Below, in pieces: positions 9,692-63,822 of a stretch of 64,000 bases of DNA. A model generated the notes under the pieces. It was not told the DNA's origin, did no database searches, and was given only the letters and a program-made list of their open reading frames with translations. This DNA is from Vineibacter terrae (GTDB lineage Bacteria > Pseudomonadota > Alphaproteobacteria > Reyranellales > Reyranellaceae). The DNA is taken from contig NZ_VDUZ01000003.1 in the NCBI RefSeq assembly GCF_008039615.1, forward strand, positions 1 to 64,000. The letters are read 5' to 3'. Position 1 is the stretch's first letter, and each line of letters starts with the position of its first letter. Made by a program: the position numbers and the translations under genes.

Positions 9692-9776
9692 GGCGGCCGT
9701 CTGACCCATATCGCTGACCGCCTCATCGTGGGGCGGTCAGCGTGTTCTCGGTCGTCCCGAGCGAAGCGAAGGACAG

Positions 9777-9889
9777 CCGGGAGCGCGCCACTCCAGTGGC
9801 GCACCGGCCCGGAGGGCCGGCTCTTGTCTTCGAGCCGACCATGATCCGGCGCTGCGCGCCGGTGCGCCACTGGAGTGGCGCGCTCCCGG
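9777..9889. repeat. Perfect 31-bp inverted repeat
   Basis: Arms at 9777-9807 and 9859-9889 begin CCGGGAGCGCGCCACTCC and pair perfectly over 31 bp, with an inner GGCCCGGAGGGCC hairpin. A GTCGTCCCGAGCGAAGCGAAG stretch just before it resembles the family-A arm. It fills most of the gap between sulfatase 2 and the next gene; no gene is seen here. Confidence 0.85.
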
Positions 9890-9959
9890 CGAAGATTCAG
9901 CCCGATTTGCGGGCGAGAGTGACTGTACGATCATGTCCGGACCGGTAGGATCAACGCGA

Positions 9960-12540: not shown

Positions 12541-12693
12541 CAGGGCATTCGCATATGCCCCTACCGTCATACCGAGCGTAGCGAGGGATCTCCCGCGAAT
12601 TGCGCACCGTGCGCCTTGCCGCAGGAGATCCCTCTCCTGAGCCTGTCGAAGGGGGCGCTCGGGATGACAGCGAGGTCATATGCGAATCCCCTG
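12541..12693. repeat. Family-A palindromic repeat, copy 2 (long form)
   Basis: The short-form core is nested inside longer arms CAGGGCATTCGCATATG and CATATGCGAATCCCCTG. An extra TCTCCTGAGCCTGTCGAAG insert breaks the right arm, as in copy 4. It lies between the spermidine synthase-like gene and the TRIC-family gene, and ends 21 bp before the latter's start. Confidence 0.85.
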
Positions 12694-16185: not shown

Positions 16186-16200
16186 GCATGTCTTTCCATT

Positions 16201-16300
16201 CGGACCGCGCGCGTCCACGCGCGCATCGGCGCGTCAGCGCCGACGAGGATCCGCTCTTCGCTTCGCTTCGAGCGAGTGCGCGCGTGGACGCGCGCGGTCC
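16201..16300. repeat. Family-B palindromic repeat, copy 1
   Basis: A 100-bp inverted repeat with arms CGGACCGCGCGCGTCCACGC and its complement, and an inner GTCAGCGCC/CTTCGCTTCG loop region. It lies between the HAD phosphatase and moxR. Copies 2 and 3 are at 22683 and 25465. Confidence 0.88.
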
Positions 16301-16325
16301 AAGGTAAGAGAAGACCGAGCGAGAT

Positions 16326-17345: not shown

Positions 17346-17348
17346 AGG

Positions 17349-17484
17349 CAGGGCGTTCGCATATGACCTCGCTGTCATCCCGAGCGTCGCGAGGGATCTC
17401 CTGCGGCAAGGCGCACGGTGCGCAATTCGCGGGAGATCCCTCGCCACGCTCGGGATGACGGTAGGGGCATATGCGAATGCCCTG
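17349..17484. repeat. Family-A palindromic repeat, copy 3 (long form)
   Basis: The best preserved long-form copy: outer arms CAGGGCGTTCGCATATG and CATATGCGAATGCCCTG flank the GTCATCCCGAGCG core and the central GCGCACGGTGCGC hairpin. It starts four bases after the moxR stop, marking the left edge of the accessory island. Confidence 0.9.
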
Positions 17485-17509
17485 CCCTTCCGGGGAAGGA
17501 GCGAAGGAT

Positions 17510-20420: not shown

Positions 20421-20855
20421 CTAGGCTGATGCGACCGGCTCGCGCCAGTCCAGGTCCGGAAAGCGGGCGTAGTCACGGTCGTAGGTGATCCATGTGCACG
20501 CGTGCTCGATCGCCAGGGCCGCAAACCAGGCGTCTGCAACGCGAGGCCCTCGGGTGCTTGTCTCGAGGCACAGGCGGGTGAATATCTTCCAGTGGCGATC
20601 GCCGGGCCGCACGGCCTGGCAGTGCGGCTGGCTTAGAAGATTGTTGCAGTAGGCGAAAACTTCGCGCGACGGGCTGGGATTCTTGAAAATTCGAGGATTG
20701 GTCGTGATCCGCACCACGGCGCTGAGCGCAAGTGGAGATACGCCGAACTGCGCGTCGCTGCCGATGATCTTGTCGAGCCAGGGTTTGCAGACGGCATGAT
20801 ATTCCGAATCCTGGCGAAACGCATAGATCAGCACATTTACGTCAGCGAGAATCAT
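20421..20855 (-). CDS. vapC: VapC-type PIN-domain ribonuclease toxin
   Basis: A 144-residue PIN-domain toxin of the VapC family, which cleaves RNA with a Mg-dependent acidic site. The N-terminal ILADVNVLIYAF carries Asp5. GVSPLALSAVVRITTNPRIF follows, then ADAWFAALAIEH with the second aspartate and ITYDRDYARF with the last acidic pair. Alanine or serine stands where many VapC proteins have a glutamate (LSAVVRI), a feature I recall from this subfamily. The ATG overlaps the vapB stop by 4 bp, giving the usual antitoxin-first coupled pair. The operon is complete, unlike the two vapC remnants upstream. Confidence 0.9.
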   Translation of the reverse strand: MILADVNVLIYAFRQDSEYHAVCKPWLDKIIGSDAQFGVSPLALSAVVRITTNPRIFKNPSPSREVFAYCNNLLSQPHCQAVRPGDRHWKIFTRLCLETSTRGPRVADAWFAALAIEHACTWITYDRDYARFPDLDWREPVASA

Positions 20856-21118
20856 CTGAGTCGCCGCGCATAGTCCAGGTCGTCCAACTCCTCCAACGAA
20901 GCCATGTCCTTCAGGTCGATTCCCGGCATCAAACCTCCGGTGGACGTGCTCACCGGCGGCAATACCCGTCTCGTCTTGCGTGTCGCTGCGTTCTCGTTCA
21001 ACACGCGGCGCAGTCCTTCTTCGATCAAGGCGGTCAGGGAGCGGCCTTCGGCGGCAGCCTTGCGTTTGGCGCGCCGTATCAGATCTTCAGGAAGACGGAC
21101 CGTGGTTCGCTCGACCAT
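20852..21118 (-). CDS. vapB: VapB-type ribbon-helix-helix antitoxin
   Basis: An 88-residue antitoxin. Residues 1-40 (RTTVRLPEDLIRRAKRKAA, then SLTALIEEGLRR) form a ribbon-helix-helix DNA-binding domain; the tail with MPGIDLKDMASLEELDD would wrap the toxin. It ends four bases into vapC. The promoter reads so close to the ATG that the transcript is probably leaderless (see 21119-21154), and an inverted repeat overlapping the -10 box fits autorepression by the VapBC complex. Confidence 0.9.
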   Translation of the reverse strand: MVERTTVRLPEDLIRRAKRKAAAEGRSLTALIEEGLRRVLNENAATRKTRRVLPPVSTSTGGLMPGIDLKDMASLEELDDLDYARRLR

Positions 21119-21295: not shown

Positions 21296-22282
21296 ATGTG
21301 TGCGCAGCCGAGCGGTGATACCGGCATCTATGTTGACCTGGCGGCGCTGATCGCGCTGGAGCACCGGGGGCGCAAGGTCTCGTTCCTCTCGCGTCAGCCG
21401 GTGCACAGCCTGCTGGCGGGGCGCTTTGCCTCGCGCATGCGTGGGCGGGGCCTCAATTTCGAGGAGATCCGGGACTACCGACCGGGTGACGATGTCCGGT
21501 CGATCGATTGGAAGGTGACGGCCCGCCTGCAGAAGCCGCATGTCCGGGTGTTCAACGAGGAGCGCGATCGCCCAGGGATCCTGGTCGTCGACCAGCGGCT
21601 GTCGATGTTCTTCGGCAGCCGCCGCGCCCTGAAATCGGTGGCCGCTGCCGAAGCCGCCGCGATCGGCACCTGGCGCATCCTGGGCGCCGGCGACCGTGTG
21701 GGCGCGATCATCTTCAACGACAGCGACCTTGCCGTGGTGCGGCCGCAGCGCAGCCGGCGCACCGCGCTGCATCTGCTGGAGGTGCTGGCGACCCAGAACC
21801 GGCAGCTCGGGGTCGGCCGCGGCATCGTGCCGAACCCTGACATGCTCAACCGCGCGCTCGACCAGGCGCGGCGGCTGGCGCTGCATGACGCCGTGGTGGT
21901 GATCATCGGCGACTTCGACGGCGCGGACCACGACACCCGCAATGCCGTCAGCGCCCTGGCCGCGCACAACGACGTCGTCGCCGTGCTCGTGCATGACCCG
22001 GTGCGCAGTCAGCTGCCCTCGACCGGACGCATGACGGTCACCGACGGCGAGCTGCAGATCCTGCTCGATGTCGGCCGCGCCGGCGCGCGGCAGGGAATCC
22101 TGGATCTGGCCGAGAACCGGCTTCGTGACGTGTTTCAGTGGACGCACGATTTCGGCGTGCCGGTGCTGCCGCTCAGCACCGCCGAAGACCCTGCCCAGCA
22201 GATCGCTCACCTCATGGGCCATCGGTTGCCGGGCGGGCGGGGCGGCCGGCCCGGTCCTGCTGGTGGAGCGGGCCATGGATAA
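21296..22282 (+). CDS. DUF58 domain protein (MoxR partner)
   Basis: A 328-residue DUF58 protein, a von Willebrand A-like family always found near MoxR ATPases. The signature RDYRPGDDVRSIDWKVTAR is at about residues 59-77, and ILVVDQRLSMF and VVVIIGDFDG mark the strands of the vWA-like fold; the MIDAS motif is imperfect, as is common in the family. No membrane segment is seen. ATG 21296 has no strong ribosome site. Its 3' end overlaps the next gene by 8 bp. It begins the distal half of the MoxR/Bat operon behind motif copy h. Confidence 0.9.
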   Translation: MCAQPSGDTGIYVDLAALIALEHRGRKVSFLSRQPVHSLLAGRFASRMRGRGLNFEEIRDYRPGDDVRSIDWKVTARLQKPHVRVFNEERDRPGILVVDQRLSMFFGSRRALKSVAAAEAAAIGTWRILGAGDRVGAIIFNDSDLAVVRPQRSRRTALHLLEVLATQNRQLGVGRGIVPNPDMLNRALDQARRLALHDAVVVIIGDFDGADHDTRNAVSALAAHNDVVAVLVHDPVRSQLPSTGRMTVTDGELQILLDVGRAGARQGILDLAENRLRDVFQWTHDFGVPVLPLSTAEDPAQQIAHLMGHRLPGGRGGRPGPAGGAGHG

Positions 22283-22820
22283 GGACGCGCCCGCCGATCC
22301 GCTTGCCGGCCTGGCCGACATCCCGTTGCCGCCGGTGGTCAGCCTGTGGCCGCAGACCTGGCCGTCGCGCATCGTGATCGCCGTGCTGGCCATTGGTCTG
22401 GTCGTGGCGGTTTGGTGGCTTGCACACCGCTGGTGGGCAAACCGCTACCGCCGCGCGGCGCTGGCCGAGCTCGATGCCCTTGCGGAACCGACGGCCGGGG
22501 CCCTGGCGCTGCTGGTGCGCCGCACGGCCCTGTCGGCTTTCCCGCGTGCCGATGTGGCCGCGCTGTCGGGCACGGCCTGGCTCGCGTTCCTCGACCGCAG
22601 CTACGGCGGCACCGGCTTCACGCAGGGCCCCGGTCGCGCGCTGGCGGCCGGACCATACGAGCCTTCGTCTGACGACGTCATGTTTCGGACCGCGCGCGTC
22701 CACGCGCGCACCGGCGCGGAGGCGCCGGATCATGAGCGCGCGTGGACGCGCGCGGTCCGAAAAGAGGACACCACCTTGCCCGGCCTGGTCCGGCACTGGA
22801 TCCGTGCGCACCATGCTTGA
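22275..22820 (+). CDS. DUF4381 domain membrane protein with in-frame repeat B
   Basis: A 181-residue protein of the DUF4381 family. One membrane segment (about 36-55, IVIAVLAIGLVVAVWWLA) follows LPPVVSLWPQTWP. The cytosolic part has the family run AEPTAGALALLVRRTALSAFPR and GTAWLAFLD. From about residue 137 to 163 the coding DNA is a complete family-B palindromic repeat, read in frame (RTARVHAR through ARAVRKE); the usual C-terminal end, LVRHWIRAH, then resumes. The protein thus carries about 27 residues of repeat-derived sequence. It overlaps the genes on both sides, so translation is coupled within the Bat operon. Confidence 0.85.
   Translation: MDKDAPADPLAGLADIPLPPVVSLWPQTWPSRIVIAVLAIGLVVAVWWLAHRWWANRYRRAALAELDALAEPTAGALALLVRRTALSAFPRADVAALSGTAWLAFLDRSYGGTGFTQGPGRALAAGPYEPSSDDVMFRTARVHARTGAEAPDHERAWTRAVRKEDTTLPGLVRHWIRAHHA
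22683..22762. repeat. Family-B palindromic repeat, copy 2, inside a gene
   Basis: Arms TTTCGGACCGCGCGCGTCC and its complement, 80 bp in all. It is the same element as at 16201 and 25465, but here it lies wholly inside the DUF4381 gene and keeps the reading frame open. Confidence 0.88.
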
Positions 22821-23853
22821 GTTCGCCTGGCCCTACGTGTTCGCGGCGCTGCCGTTGCCCCTGCTGGCATGGTGGCTGCTGCCGGCCTACCGCGAGCGGC
22901 GGGCCTCGGTGCAGGTGCCGTTCTTCGGTCAGCTCGCGGCGGCGGTCGGGCAGACGCCGCAGCGCGGCGCGGTTGTCATGCGGCGGCTGGCGGTCCAGAC
23001 CATCGTCGCGGCCATCGCCTGGGTGCTGATCGTCGCGGCGCTGGCGCGGCCGCAATGGGTGGGCGGGCCGATCACGCGCGACGTCTCGGCACGCGACCTC
23101 ATGCTGGCGGTCGACCTGTCGGGGTCGATGGAGCAAGCCGATTTCCGTGCGCCGGACGGGCAGATGCAGCAGCGCCTCGCCGGCGTCAAGCAGGTGGTCA
23201 GCGCGTTCGTGGCCCGGCGGCACGGTGATCGCATCGGGCTGATCCTGTTCGGCACCAAGGCCTATGTGCAGGTCCCGTTCACGCAGGATCTGGCCACCGT
23301 GCAGATGCTGCTCGATCAGACACAGGTCGCCATGGCGGGTCAGCAGACGGCAATCGGCGATGCGATCGGACTGGCGATCAAAGCCTTCGAGCAGAGCAAG
23401 GCGCAGCAGAAGGTGCTGATCCTGCTGACCGACGGCAACGACACCGCAAGCCGGGTGCCGCCGGCACATGCCGCCGATATCGCCCACCAGCGCGGCCTCG
23501 TCATCTACACCATCGGCATCGGTGATCCGCACGCGAAGGGCGAGAACCGCGTCGACCTCGATGCCCTGAAGACGGTTGCCGACACGACGAAGGGGCAGTT
23601 CTTCCGCGCCGAGGATGCAGCCCAGCTCGAGACGATCTATGGCGACATCGACAAGCTCGCGCCCGTGAAGCTGCAGACGCTGTCCTGGCGGCCCAGGTTG
23701 CCGTTGTTCCACTGGCCGCTCGGTGTCGCTATCGTGCTGGTGCTGGGCCTGTGGGCGCTGCTGCTGGCGCGCGATGTGATTTTATCTTTCTCCCCGCGAA
23801 GGCGGGGAGGGGAGCGCGAACAAGGCCTTCATGGTGAGCTTGTCGAACCATGA
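22813..23853 (+). CDS. BatA-like von Willebrand A membrane protein
   Basis: A 346-residue BatA-type protein. Two N-terminal membrane segments (about 5-24 and 60-78) precede a von Willebrand A domain with a full MIDAS site: DLSGSM at 101-106, the distal threonine in GQQTAIGDAIG and the aspartate in ILLTDGND. A final membrane segment lies near FHWPLGVAIVLVLGLWALLLA. The last dozen residues, including GELVEP, are encoded by repeat DNA (a CCCCGC hairpin and the family-C arm), so the original C-terminus appears to have been replaced. The ATG overlaps the DUF4381 stop. It should act with MoxR at the inner membrane, its vWA domain facing the periplasm or cytosol. Confidence 0.9.
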   Translation: MLEFAWPYVFAALPLPLLAWWLLPAYRERRASVQVPFFGQLAAAVGQTPQRGAVVMRRLAVQTIVAAIAWVLIVAALARPQWVGGPITRDVSARDLMLAVDLSGSMEQADFRAPDGQMQQRLAGVKQVVSAFVARRHGDRIGLILFGTKAYVQVPFTQDLATVQMLLDQTQVAMAGQQTAIGDAIGLAIKAFEQSKAQQKVLILLTDGNDTASRVPPAHAADIAHQRGLVIYTIGIGDPHAKGENRVDLDALKTVADTTKGQFFRAEDAAQLETIYGDIDKLAPVKLQTLSWRPRLPLFHWPLGVAIVLVLGLWALLLARDVILSFSPRRRGGEREQGLHGELVEP

Positions 23854-23910
23854 AGGCCCTGCACGATGGTGGTGCGAAACGCTTCATGGTTCGACAAGCT
23901 CACCATGAAG
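23827..23910. repeat. Family-C inverted repeat
   Basis: Arms at 23827-23855 and 23882-23910 begin CTTCATGGTGAGCTTGTCG and CTTCATGGTTCGACAAGCTC and pair over 29 bp; each arm is itself partly palindromic (CTTCATGGT...ACCATGAAG). The left arm contains the stop codon and last residues of BatA, and the right arm ends 24 bp before the next start. Confidence 0.85.
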
Positions 23911-25464: not shown

Positions 25465-25567
25465 TTTCGGACCGCGGGCGTCCACGCCCGCAATCGCCCG
25501 GAGCGAAGCGGAGGGCGACATGGTCGGCGCTTCGCGCCGATGCGGGCGTGGACGCCCGCGGTCCAAA
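25465..25567. repeat. Family-B palindromic repeat, copy 3
   Basis: Arms TTTCGGACCGCGGGCGTCCACGC-like, at 25465 and its complement near 25545-25567, with an internal GCGAAGCG/CGCTTCGCG stem. It starts 15 bp after the BatB-BatC stop. Confidence 0.85.
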
Positions 25568-28242: not shown

Positions 28243-28379
28243 CAGGGCATTCACATATGCCCCTGCCGTCATCCCGAGCGTAGCGAGGGATCTCCCGTGA
28301 ATTGCGCACCGCGCGCCTTGCCGCAGGAGATCCCTCGCTGACGCTCGGGATGACAGAGAGGTCATTTGCGAATGCCCTG
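28243..28379. repeat. Family-A palindromic repeat, copy 5 (long form)
   Basis: Long-form element of 137 bp with outer arms CAGGGCATTCACATATG and CATTTGCGAATGCCCTG, one or two substitutions each, around an intact core. It follows ppk2 and ends 39 bp before the antiporter start. Confidence 0.88.
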
Positions 28380-52352: not shown

Positions 52353-52386
52353 CCCCGAACGCGCTCAAGCCCTCGCTGACCGATCC

Positions 52387-52464
52387 GTCATCCCGAGCGT
52401 AGCGAGGGATCTCCCGGCTGCGGATCTCCGCTCGCGGAAGATCCCTCGCTGCGCTCGGGATGAC
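52387..52464. repeat. Family-A palindromic repeat, copy 6 (short form), within operon
   Basis: A 78-bp short-form copy between the binding-protein gene and the first permease gene of the sarcosine operon. In RNA it forms a long stem starting 9 bases after the binding-protein stop. This is the position where REP hairpins in other importers protect the upstream message and lower downstream expression. Confidence 0.88.
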
Positions 52465-52473
52465 GGTGTAAGG

Positions 52474-57849: not shown

Positions 57850-57951
57850 GTGAGGCTCCTGACTTGCGGCCAGCGGTGCTGCCTTTCACTGATCCTAAAA
57901 GCATTCGATGTTGCGAATCAATCGCATATCGTCGAAGGCAAGGGCACAACT

Positions 57952-58036
57952 GTCATCCCGAGCGCAGCGAGGGATCTCCTGCGGCAAGGCGCATGGTGCG
58001 TCATTCGCGGGAGATCCTCGCTGCGCTCGGGATGAC
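57952..58036. repeat. Family-A palindromic repeat, copy 7 (short form)
   Basis: An 85-bp short-form copy between the dipeptide-type binding-protein gene and the PPOX gene, both on the minus strand. It begins 30 bases after the binding-protein stop when read on that strand and may form its 3' hairpin. Confidence 0.88.
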
Positions 58037-58065
58037 AGGTGTGTCACGGTCCGTGATTCCAGGCA

Positions 58066-62119: not shown

Positions 62120-63676
62120 TCATTCCTTCCACACGCCCCAGAACCGCTCGTTGCCGGCCGGCCAGGTCTTGTAGCCGCGCACGCGCGGCCCGGCTGCCGA
62201 GACCTCGACCGGATTGTAGATGCCGAGGATCGGCACGGCGTCGGCCATGCGCTGGTGCAAGGACGCGAACAGCCGGCCGCGCTCGGCCGGCTCGCTGGAC
62301 GCCTTGGCGGCATCCAGCAGCGCCTTCGCTTGCGGGTCATCCCATTGCGCGAAGGGGAAGCGTGTCTTGTCGCCGATCAGCGAGGCATAGCCCAGCGCCG
62401 GGTCGAGGCGCGACGAATAGACGAAGGAGGAGAGCTGGAACTTGCCCGTGTTGTAGTTCTGCAGCTGGGTCGCCCATTCCAGCGTCTCGAGCTTGGCATT
62501 GATGCCGGCCTCGGCCAGCATGGCCTGGATCATGACGGCGGCATCGAAATAGCCGCCGGGCCGCGTGCTGGTCTGGATCCGGAGCGGCTGGCCGGCATAG
62601 CCGGCCTCCTTGAGCAGGCGCTTGGCGGCAGCCGGATCATGCGCCGGCCAGGCCGCGAAGGCGCTGCCGTAATAGGGGCTGGCCAGGGGCACGGCAGCAG
62701 GGTTCGGGCCGGCGAGGCCGAAGGACAGCGACTGCGCCACCTCGCGCAGGTCGACGGCGTGGGCAATGGCGCGGCGCATGCGCATATCGGCCAGCAGTGG
62801 GTCGCGCGTCTGCATCAACATCACCTGCCAAGCGAATGTCGACTGCACGGAAACCTGGACGCCGCGCGCCTTGGCGTCATCGACATCGTTGGGCGACAGC
62901 ACCGGCACGACGTCGACATTGCCGGTGAGCAGGGCCGCCTTCATCACCGAGGCATCGGTGATGGCCAGAAAGCGCAGCCGCTCGGCGTAGGCGATCTTGG
63001 CGCCGGCCATGCCGTCGCGTGTCCCCTCCGCCGGGCGGTAGCCCGAGAAGCGCGCCAGCTCGATCTGCCGGCCGCGCTGCCAGTCGCGAAGCACGTAGGG
63101 GCCGGTGCCGATCGGCGCGCGCCAGGCGCCGTCGGGCCCGACCGAGTCAGGATGCAGGATCGCGGCGTTGCACTGCAGGTTGGCCATCGCGATCAGGAAC
63201 AGGCCGGAAGCTTCCTGCAGGCGGAACACGACCGTTCTCGGGTCCGGGGCCTCGACATCGAGCACCTTCGGGCCTTGCGTGCCGTCGAAGAAGCGGGTGC
63301 ACGCCCACAGGGTCTTGGGATCGAGATACCGGCGCCAGCTCCAGACGACCTCTGCCGATGTGAGCGGCGCGCCGTTGTGGAACGACACGCCTTCGCGCAG
63401 GCGGAAGCGATAGGTCCGGCCGCCATCCTCGACCAGCCAGGATTCGGCCAGCATGGGCGCGACGGACAGATCCTCGCGATAGGCCACGAGGCCTTCGACG
63501 ACGTGGTGCAGCACCGTGTCGGAATTGGCATCGCGGTTCACGCCGGGGTTGCTGCTGCGGATGTCCGAGATCAGCGCCACGGTGAGCGCATCGGTGCGGC
63601 GTCCCTCCTGCGCCAGCGCGCCGCCGACTGTCAGCAGGGTGGCGGCGAGAATGATGATCTTCCGCCCTCCCGTCAT
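62120..63676 (-). CDS. Dipeptide-type ABC substrate-binding protein 2, start in repeat A
   Basis: A 518-residue family 5 solute-binding protein, close to binding protein 1 along its length (NRDANSDTV against NRDANTDTV; LAESW; RLREGVSFHNGAPLT; YSSRLDP). The signal peptide begins MTGGRKIIILAATLL and ends near ALAQ. Its ATG at 63676 is part of the family-A repeat, within the arm sequence CTCGGGATGACGGG; the arm's CTCGGG takes the place of a ribosome site. Aligning signal peptides of the two paralogues supports this start. The frame is open through the repeat to 63898, but that upstream part is repeat translation. Confidence 0.88.
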   Translation of the reverse strand: MTGGRKIIILAATLLTVGGALAQEGRRTDALTVALISDIRSSNPGVNRDANSDTVLHHVVEGLVAYREDLSVAPMLAESWLVEDGGRTYRFRLREGVSFHNGAPLTSAEVVWSWRRYLDPKTLWACTRFFDGTQGPKVLDVEAPDPRTVVFRLQEASGLFLIAMANLQCNAAILHPDSVGPDGAWRAPIGTGPYVLRDWQRGRQIELARFSGYRPAEGTRDGMAGAKIAYAERLRFLAITDASVMKAALLTGNVDVVPVLSPNDVDDAKARGVQVSVQSTFAWQVMLMQTRDPLLADMRMRRAIAHAVDLREVAQSLSFGLAGPNPAAVPLASPYYGSAFAAWPAHDPAAAKRLLKEAGYAGQPLRIQTSTRPGGYFDAAVMIQAMLAEAGINAKLETLEWATQLQNYNTGKFQLSSFVYSSRLDPALGYASLIGDKTRFPFAQWDDPQAKALLDAAKASSEPAERGRLFASLHQRMADAVPILGIYNPVEVSAAGPRVRGYKTWPAGNERFWGVWKE

Positions 63677-63757
63677 CCCGAGCGCAGCGAGGGATCTCCT
63701 GCGGCAGGGCGCACGGTGCGCTATCCGCGGGAGATCCCTCGCTGCGCTCGGGATGAC
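63672..63757. repeat. Family-A palindromic repeat, copy 8, carrying a start codon
   Basis: An 86-bp short-form copy. Its left arm in window coordinates overlaps the first codon of binding protein 2, so the repeat forms that gene's leader and start. An RNA hairpin here would hide the start codon. Confidence 0.88.
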
Positions 63758-63822
63758 GGGAAGGACGGCAGCGCGATGCCGCGCCACAGGTGAGCCGCCC
63801 GCCCGCCACGCGGGGAAGAGTT

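Follow-up and report, generated by a model that had tools for sequence, protein, structure and literature searches.

How a dispersed palindromic repeat comes to be read as protein is the question raised by a DUF4381 gene of Vineibacter terrae. The gene lies within a 64,000-nucleotide stretch of contig NZ_VDUZ01000003.1 (hereafter the window; Table 1), in a row whose members, according to profile matches, are DUF58, DUF4381, a BatA-like VWA protein, a VWA protein with TPR, and a BatD-like protein. Its frame runs from the ATG at 22275 to the TGA at 22818-22820 with no intervening stop, and in the sequence the ATG of the BatA-like gene overlaps its end by eight bases. Inside this open frame, an inverted-repeat search finds two arms (22683-22709 and 22736-22762) of 27 nt each, 100% complementary and separated by a spacer of 26 nt. 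Direct reading of the sequence places the start of codon 137 at 22683 and codon 163 at 22761-22763. A preliminary description, made from the sequence without database searches, had reported an in-frame palindromic repeat here, at 22683-22762 and spanning residues 137-163; its coordinates are exact, the residues agree with the codon positions, and, as read from the letters, the palindrome is perfect and the frame open throughout.

Table 1 Features of the DUF4381 locus and related repeats in the window
Feature	Position	Strand	Remarks
DUF58 gene, upstream	21296..22282	+	PF01882, E 5.7e-42
DUF4381 gene, 181 aa	22275..22820	+	Contains the repeat; shares bases with both neighbors, DUF58 (5') and BatA-like (3'); PF14316, E 1.8e-30
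Short-type REPIN (best-fitting name)	22683..22762		Codons 137-163 of the DUF4381 gene, in frame; perfect inverted repeat, family member
Left REP	22687..22709	+	Tag GGACC, 8-bp stem, CC loop; exact pattern match; stem covariation in the family
Short-type spacer	22710..22735		Small inner hairpin CCGGCG..CGCCGG plus ATCATGA (sequence, fold)
Right REP, inverted	22736..22758	-	Exact pattern match
18 final codons 3' of the repeat, EDTTLPGLVRHWIRAHHA	22764..22817	+	Conserved end; W-I/V region common to homologues
BatA-like VWA gene, downstream	22813..23853	+	PF00092; NF047508 168 bits, below the cut-off of 380
Long-type REPIN, same family	16199..16303		105 bp, intergenic
Long-type REPIN, same family	25466..25567		102 bp, intergenic

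The Pfam match of the DUF4381 protein, which covers positions 2-126 of the 145 in the profile, stops at base 22682, one base 5' of the repeat. The nine C-terminal residues (RHWIRAHHA) are identical to those of a homologue on one contig of an alphaproteobacterial metagenome bin (L053), and homologues share the W-I/V region; the conserved end thus resumes in frame after the repeat, as had been proposed. Besides L053, homologues were drawn from 61 genomes (nine with a match, V. terrae included) and from the class, where 25 of 385 genomes, V. terrae again included, have a match. Removal of three loci without an alignment reduced the initial 33 to 30, and 20 were measured after two duplicates and eight rows without an anchor had been set aside. 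Between the two anchors, the window protein holds 46 residues vs. 15-22 in all 20 measured homologues (20 and 21 residues in six each, 15 in four, 22 in two, and 16 and 18 in one each). The rows left out for a missing anchor include two apparent true homologues that lack the tryptophan, L133 with 20 residues and L147 with 24 (the range including L147 being 15-24); the others are short, misplaced matches. Because the DUF4381 match ends at 22682 and the homologues have 15-22 residues as against 46, the segment 22683-22762 is considered an insertion. Chance convergence, in which the residues would be native and their likeness to the repeat fortuitous, has virtually no probability left: the 27-bp arms are perfect, the family match is exact, and this reading was rejected when each of the 20 measured homologues proved to be without the residues. 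Repeat-less orthologues sharing the same 27 residues, which the preliminary description had named as the sign of such convergence, are therefore not among the 20.

The expectation that orthologues without the repeat would close the gap holds, but not the expectation of an exact length, as their own spacing varies. With an ancestral linker of 20 residues, the insertion would comprise 26 residues, which corresponds to a 78-bp core; with 18, as in L053, it would comprise 28. The linker of the four same-family homologues has 15 residues, which would make the addition 31 residues, not 26, and counts against a 26-residue insertion. A site without the repeat was sought in the same species or genus and not found, three same-genus genomes having no DUF4381 match; among the same-genus DNA matches listed, none covers DUF4381, and the best, at about 74% identity, lies over other genes. 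Structure prediction of the DUF4381 protein, based on a two-sequence alignment, is uninformative on the insert (mean pLDDT 51.4, pTM 0.24).

The repeat is a member of a large family. With up to one mismatch, the arm pattern has 127 matches in the 8,756,861-base genome and the reversed control pattern has 0, which, along with a fold about 10 SD more stable than dinucleotide shuffles, places the family beyond chance. For the isolated repeat at 22683-22762, the RNA fold has an energy of -76.5 kcal/mol (z -10.15) and the DNA fold one of -53.2 kcal/mol (z -10.64), both z values relative to dinucleotide shuffles. Counted as listed places, there are at least 76 elements of this GGACC family in the V. 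terrae genome and at least 52 in the same-genus genome G002. Exact arms are present in five of the 61 genomes, namely V. terrae (112), G002 (85), G003 (3), G028 (3), and G030 (1). Spacer comparison distinguishes two main forms, a long one of typically about 105 bp and a short one; a few copies are shorter still. Counted between their TTC and GAA ends, the eight complete short-type copies measured, including the one in the gene, have lengths of 78 bp (seven copies) or 79 bp (one copy), and between two and five of their six frames are open. The length of long copies of 95-115 bp is divisible by three in 19 of 37. The window copies at 16201 and 25465, which had been described as further examples of the 80-bp unit, are indeed intergenic, but they measure 105 and 102 bp and have another spacer; the part common to them and the in-gene copy is the 23-nt end hairpins, not an 80-bp unit. 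Some copies of 34 bp (L101:2499-2532 and L113:2499-2532 in V. terrae; L199, L213, and L228 in G002) constitute a single REP hairpin between both tags (GGACC..GGTCC) and resemble what would be left of a complete REPIN after loss of the spacer and one of its hairpins.

Judging from its sequence, the element at 22683-22762 is best named a REPIN, i.e., two inverted REP hairpins with a short spacer. The family combines inverted REPs and a spacer with a conserved hairpin in each REP and with a large number of scattered copies, most of them extragenic. Watson-Crick pairing between stem position 4 and its partner is kept in 111 of 113 arms in V. terrae (one more is G-T and one a mismatch) and in 78 of 79 arms in G002. 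Comparison of both hairpins within an element nevertheless shows a difference at this position in 8 of 39 dimers in V. terrae and in 13 of 28 dimers in G002. As the local pair is kept even though the hairpins of a dimer differ, it is the small hairpin that is conserved and not a long cruciform, and this is what characterizes REPs that are paired in a REPIN.

REPINs are linked to RAYTs (REP-associated tyrosine transposases). Of genes with the Y1_Tnp domain (PF01797), there are two in the V. terrae genome and ten in five of the six relatives searched. A hairpin with a GG[AG][CG]C tag, an 8-bp stem, and a CC loop occurs at 8 of 12 RAYT loci (21 hairpins in 37,726 bases) vs. 4 of 71 control loci (7 in 232,634 bases), the controls being loci fetched for other genes, partly from outside the family; two of these seven belong to the GGACC family itself, and one control locus (L264) is the MetE-like locus of V. 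terrae with a copy of that family. The GGACC tag itself is found at four RAYT loci (L185, L186, L189, and L191), none with the stem sequence of the family at 22683-22762. In G028 and G030, GGACC hairpins lie on both sides of the RAYT gene, and a TCATG-like sequence adjoins the stem. The only two Y1_Tnp genes found in V. terrae (L054 on contig C74 and L055 on contig C23) each stand beside a hairpin of another stem, and examination of both loci did not reveal the stem of the GGACC family. Their products fall slightly short of the NCBIfam threshold for RAYTs (78.3 and 72.7 of 80 bits). We infer that the mobilizing enzyme of the GGACC family is or was a RAYT.

The tag is unusual. The foot of the hairpin is GGACC rather than an unpaired GTAG, GYAG, GTRG, or the like, as in the GTAG-tagged REP super-family, and with its CC loop it also differs from the CGTC-tagged super-family. 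The latter, as described in PMC3733652, is characterized by an unpaired CGTC, TGTC, or CCTC at the foot, a stem of 8-9 bp, a loop of 4-5, and no RAYT link. Studies of RAYTs (PMC6006769 and PMC8266576) describe four bases at the foot of the hairpin, in most cases GT[AG]G, as a guide; no word beginning with GGAC was found in the texts of these two papers. A GGACC tag beside RAYT genes thus falls outside the GTAG pattern described for REPs, as far as these sources present it.

The window contains other repeats and genes of some interest. At 9776-9890 lies a second REPIN of the same build, with the tag GGAGC and the stem GCGCCACT; its hairpin also flanks RAYT genes in relatives (L187, L189, and L190). 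Inverted repeats built on GTCATCCCGAGCG (1541-1625, 12541-12693, 17347-17486, 28243-28379, 52385-52466, 57945-58043, and 63665-63764) resemble CGTC-tagged REPs in sequence. At 23827-23910, the last residues (..HGELVEP) and the stop of the BatA-like protein lie within a perfect 29-bp inverted repeat, CTTCATGGTGAGCTTGTCGAACCATGAAG, which belongs to another family; this stretch has many relatives in G002 and G003. The ORF called from 23866 overruns the right arm of this repeat and therefore probably starts at a later position. On the minus strand at 20421-21118, the translations of two small adjoining ORFs resemble a PIN-domain toxin and its antitoxin; the region of this putative pair has a 74% DNA match in G002.

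To find the coding frames that flank each element, a codon-usage model was seeded with four window genes of the Bat row and refined on the fetched loci. An earlier model trained on the longest ORFs was dropped, having favored the antisense frame of the known DUF4381 gene. Many copies lie in long open frames, which in this genome of 69% G+C are mostly not coding frames by the codon-usage model. In V. terrae, 67 of the at least 76 elements are scorable, nine being at contig ends, and one of the 67, the DUF4381 copy, is read through. Five calls place a stop inside an element; two of them (L075 and L115) are boundary errors of one-armed copies, whereas in the other three the element supplies the gene end. 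Thus, L081, related to iron-sulfur proteins of lactate oxidation, ends ..AIGEPERTEAPVSDRARPRAHRRTSAGS; several of its relatives end AIGEPERG or AIGEPERS, and two same-genus ones continue for roughly ten more residues that are specific to them. In L111, a relative of methionine synthases, the end is ..LWRRKSSTGFRTAGVHARIRSKRSAERKHDRR, and in its closest relative ..LWRRRTRAARPKAARA; the family matches all lie below curated cut-offs. The third, L100, is an apparent FAD oxidoreductase. The search for further in-gene copies, suggested in the preliminary description, thereby yields one read-through and three gene-end copies among the 67. Among the 52 elements in G002, no read-through is supported by the coding scores of both flanks: the 'through' calls at L200, L220, and L226 have a coding score of at most 0.06 on one side, and the one-armed L211 is an automatic 'inside' call only. 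In the same genome, gene L237 ends inside an element and gene L223 at the edge of one. Of the gene 3' ends that face an element, 79 of 86 in V. terrae and 58 of 67 in G002 have their stop codon outside the element at a distance of at most 35 bp. The position just after stop codons is the usual place of REPs.

The DUF4381 copy is, with high probability, a short-type, non-autonomous REPIN that inserted, with the frame kept, in the linker of variable length that joins the DUF4381 core to the conserved C-terminal end. A RAYT acting on single-stranded DNA would have moved it there. Counting against this explanation are the failure to find an empty site, the varying spacing of the homologues, the other stems beside the two V. 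terrae RAYTs and their scores below the cut-off, and a tag that is GGACC and not GTAG. To judge from the frame, the net added length would be a multiple of three, with 78, 81, or 84 bp all fitting; the insertion phase would have avoided the TGA present in the REPIN spacer, and the overlapping junction with the BatA-like gene would have been preserved. The copy may have survived because both the frame in the linker and this junction were kept, whereas selection presumably removes most insertions at other places in genes, which would account for the position of the family just after stop codons. Most likely, the REPIN has no useful role in the DUF4381 gene and is either tolerated or a very young insertion.

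Several other explanations have to be weighed. The gene might be damaged, i.e., a recent insertion could have kept the frame by luck while DUF4381 no longer works; this is unlikely. In its favor, the identical arms and their exact match to the family pattern suggest that the copy may be young, it is the sole read-through copy among the 67 scored, and chance keeps the frame for one in three lengths. On the other hand, the gene carries no stop or frameshift, and its conserved end and both overlaps with its neighbors are intact. The same considerations bear on the preliminary description, which was right that the element inserted in coding DNA; its statement that such an insertion can be tolerated is too strong for one copy with identical arms, which may be recent. 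It is improbable that the repeat is retained because its hairpin modulates the mRNA at the junction of DUF4381 with the BatA-like gene, which starts 50 bases 3' of the repeat: although the predicted RNA hairpin is very stable and sits just 5' of the overlapping start codon, translating ribosomes would open it, many unrelated genes have the same hairpin after them, and a single copy in a single gene is no sign of selection. An assembly artefact at the repeat is even harder to credit. Nine of the at least 76 family copies, whose spacers are those of the short form or of even shorter ones, are no more than about 100 bp away from a contig end, so assemblers do stumble on such copies; however, both flanks of the DUF4381 copy come from one gene and one gene row, which a chimeric join via the repeat would not yield.

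A bolder and rather doubtful idea sees in the 78-bp short type a REPIN form that has spread recently, is frame-neutral by build (26 codons), hops into genes in this lineage, adds peptides, and possibly excises. If this were true, the DUF4381 copy, together with the three copies at gene ends, would show single moments of a process by which a GGACC-tagged REPIN shapes the proteins of living populations.

Insertion of a REPIN with the frame kept has precedents. Di Nocera, De Gregorio and Rocco (2013, PMC3733652) describe intragenic REPs from several species; dimers or groups, which encode 20-30 residues, make up more than half of these inserts; some REPs provide stop codons, and most copies lie just after genes. 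The DUF4381 copy is likewise a dimer in frame within a gene, but the super-families described there are tagged GTAG or CGTC, and the V. terrae family GGACC. The REPINs of Bertels and Rainey (2011, PMC3116915) also consist of inverted REPs and a spacer in many copies, mostly between genes; they are linked to RAYTs, whereas the V. terrae family has the GGACC tag, no V. terrae RAYT flanked by its stem, and no excision seen with one genome per species. Rickettsia palindromic elements, as presented in PMC2229807, measure 105-146 bp, have a 12-bp terminal repeat, and occur in 19 reading frames, and an enzyme with such an insert is still active. Like the DUF4381 copy, they are palindromes in frame inside genes of conserved proteins; here, by contrast, there is one internal copy, a REPIN of 78-80 bp, the two being set apart by description and not by sequence. 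The parallel with Rickettsia that had been drawn is therefore a fair analogy, although not a first case outside that genus, as the intragenic REPs of PMC3733652 attest. ERIC, Correia, and other MITEs are similarly short and non-autonomous, and some are fused in frame to genes (PMC2229807); they have terminal inverted repeats, with target duplications for ERIC and Correia, while the conserved unit in V. terrae is a local hairpin. Among the literature listed for REPIN, RAYT, intragenic REP, and Rickettsia, no title concerns a REP in a DUF4381 gene.

The phenomenon is thus already known; the DUF4381 case is real, clean, and counted, and has an unusual tag. One internal case among 67 scorable elements, with none supported among 52 in the relative, gives a rough number for how seldom such insertions persist. 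By its sequence, the DUF4381 gene would be a clean example of a RAYT-type repeat that has become protein sequence, accompanied by homologues and a genome-wide background rate.
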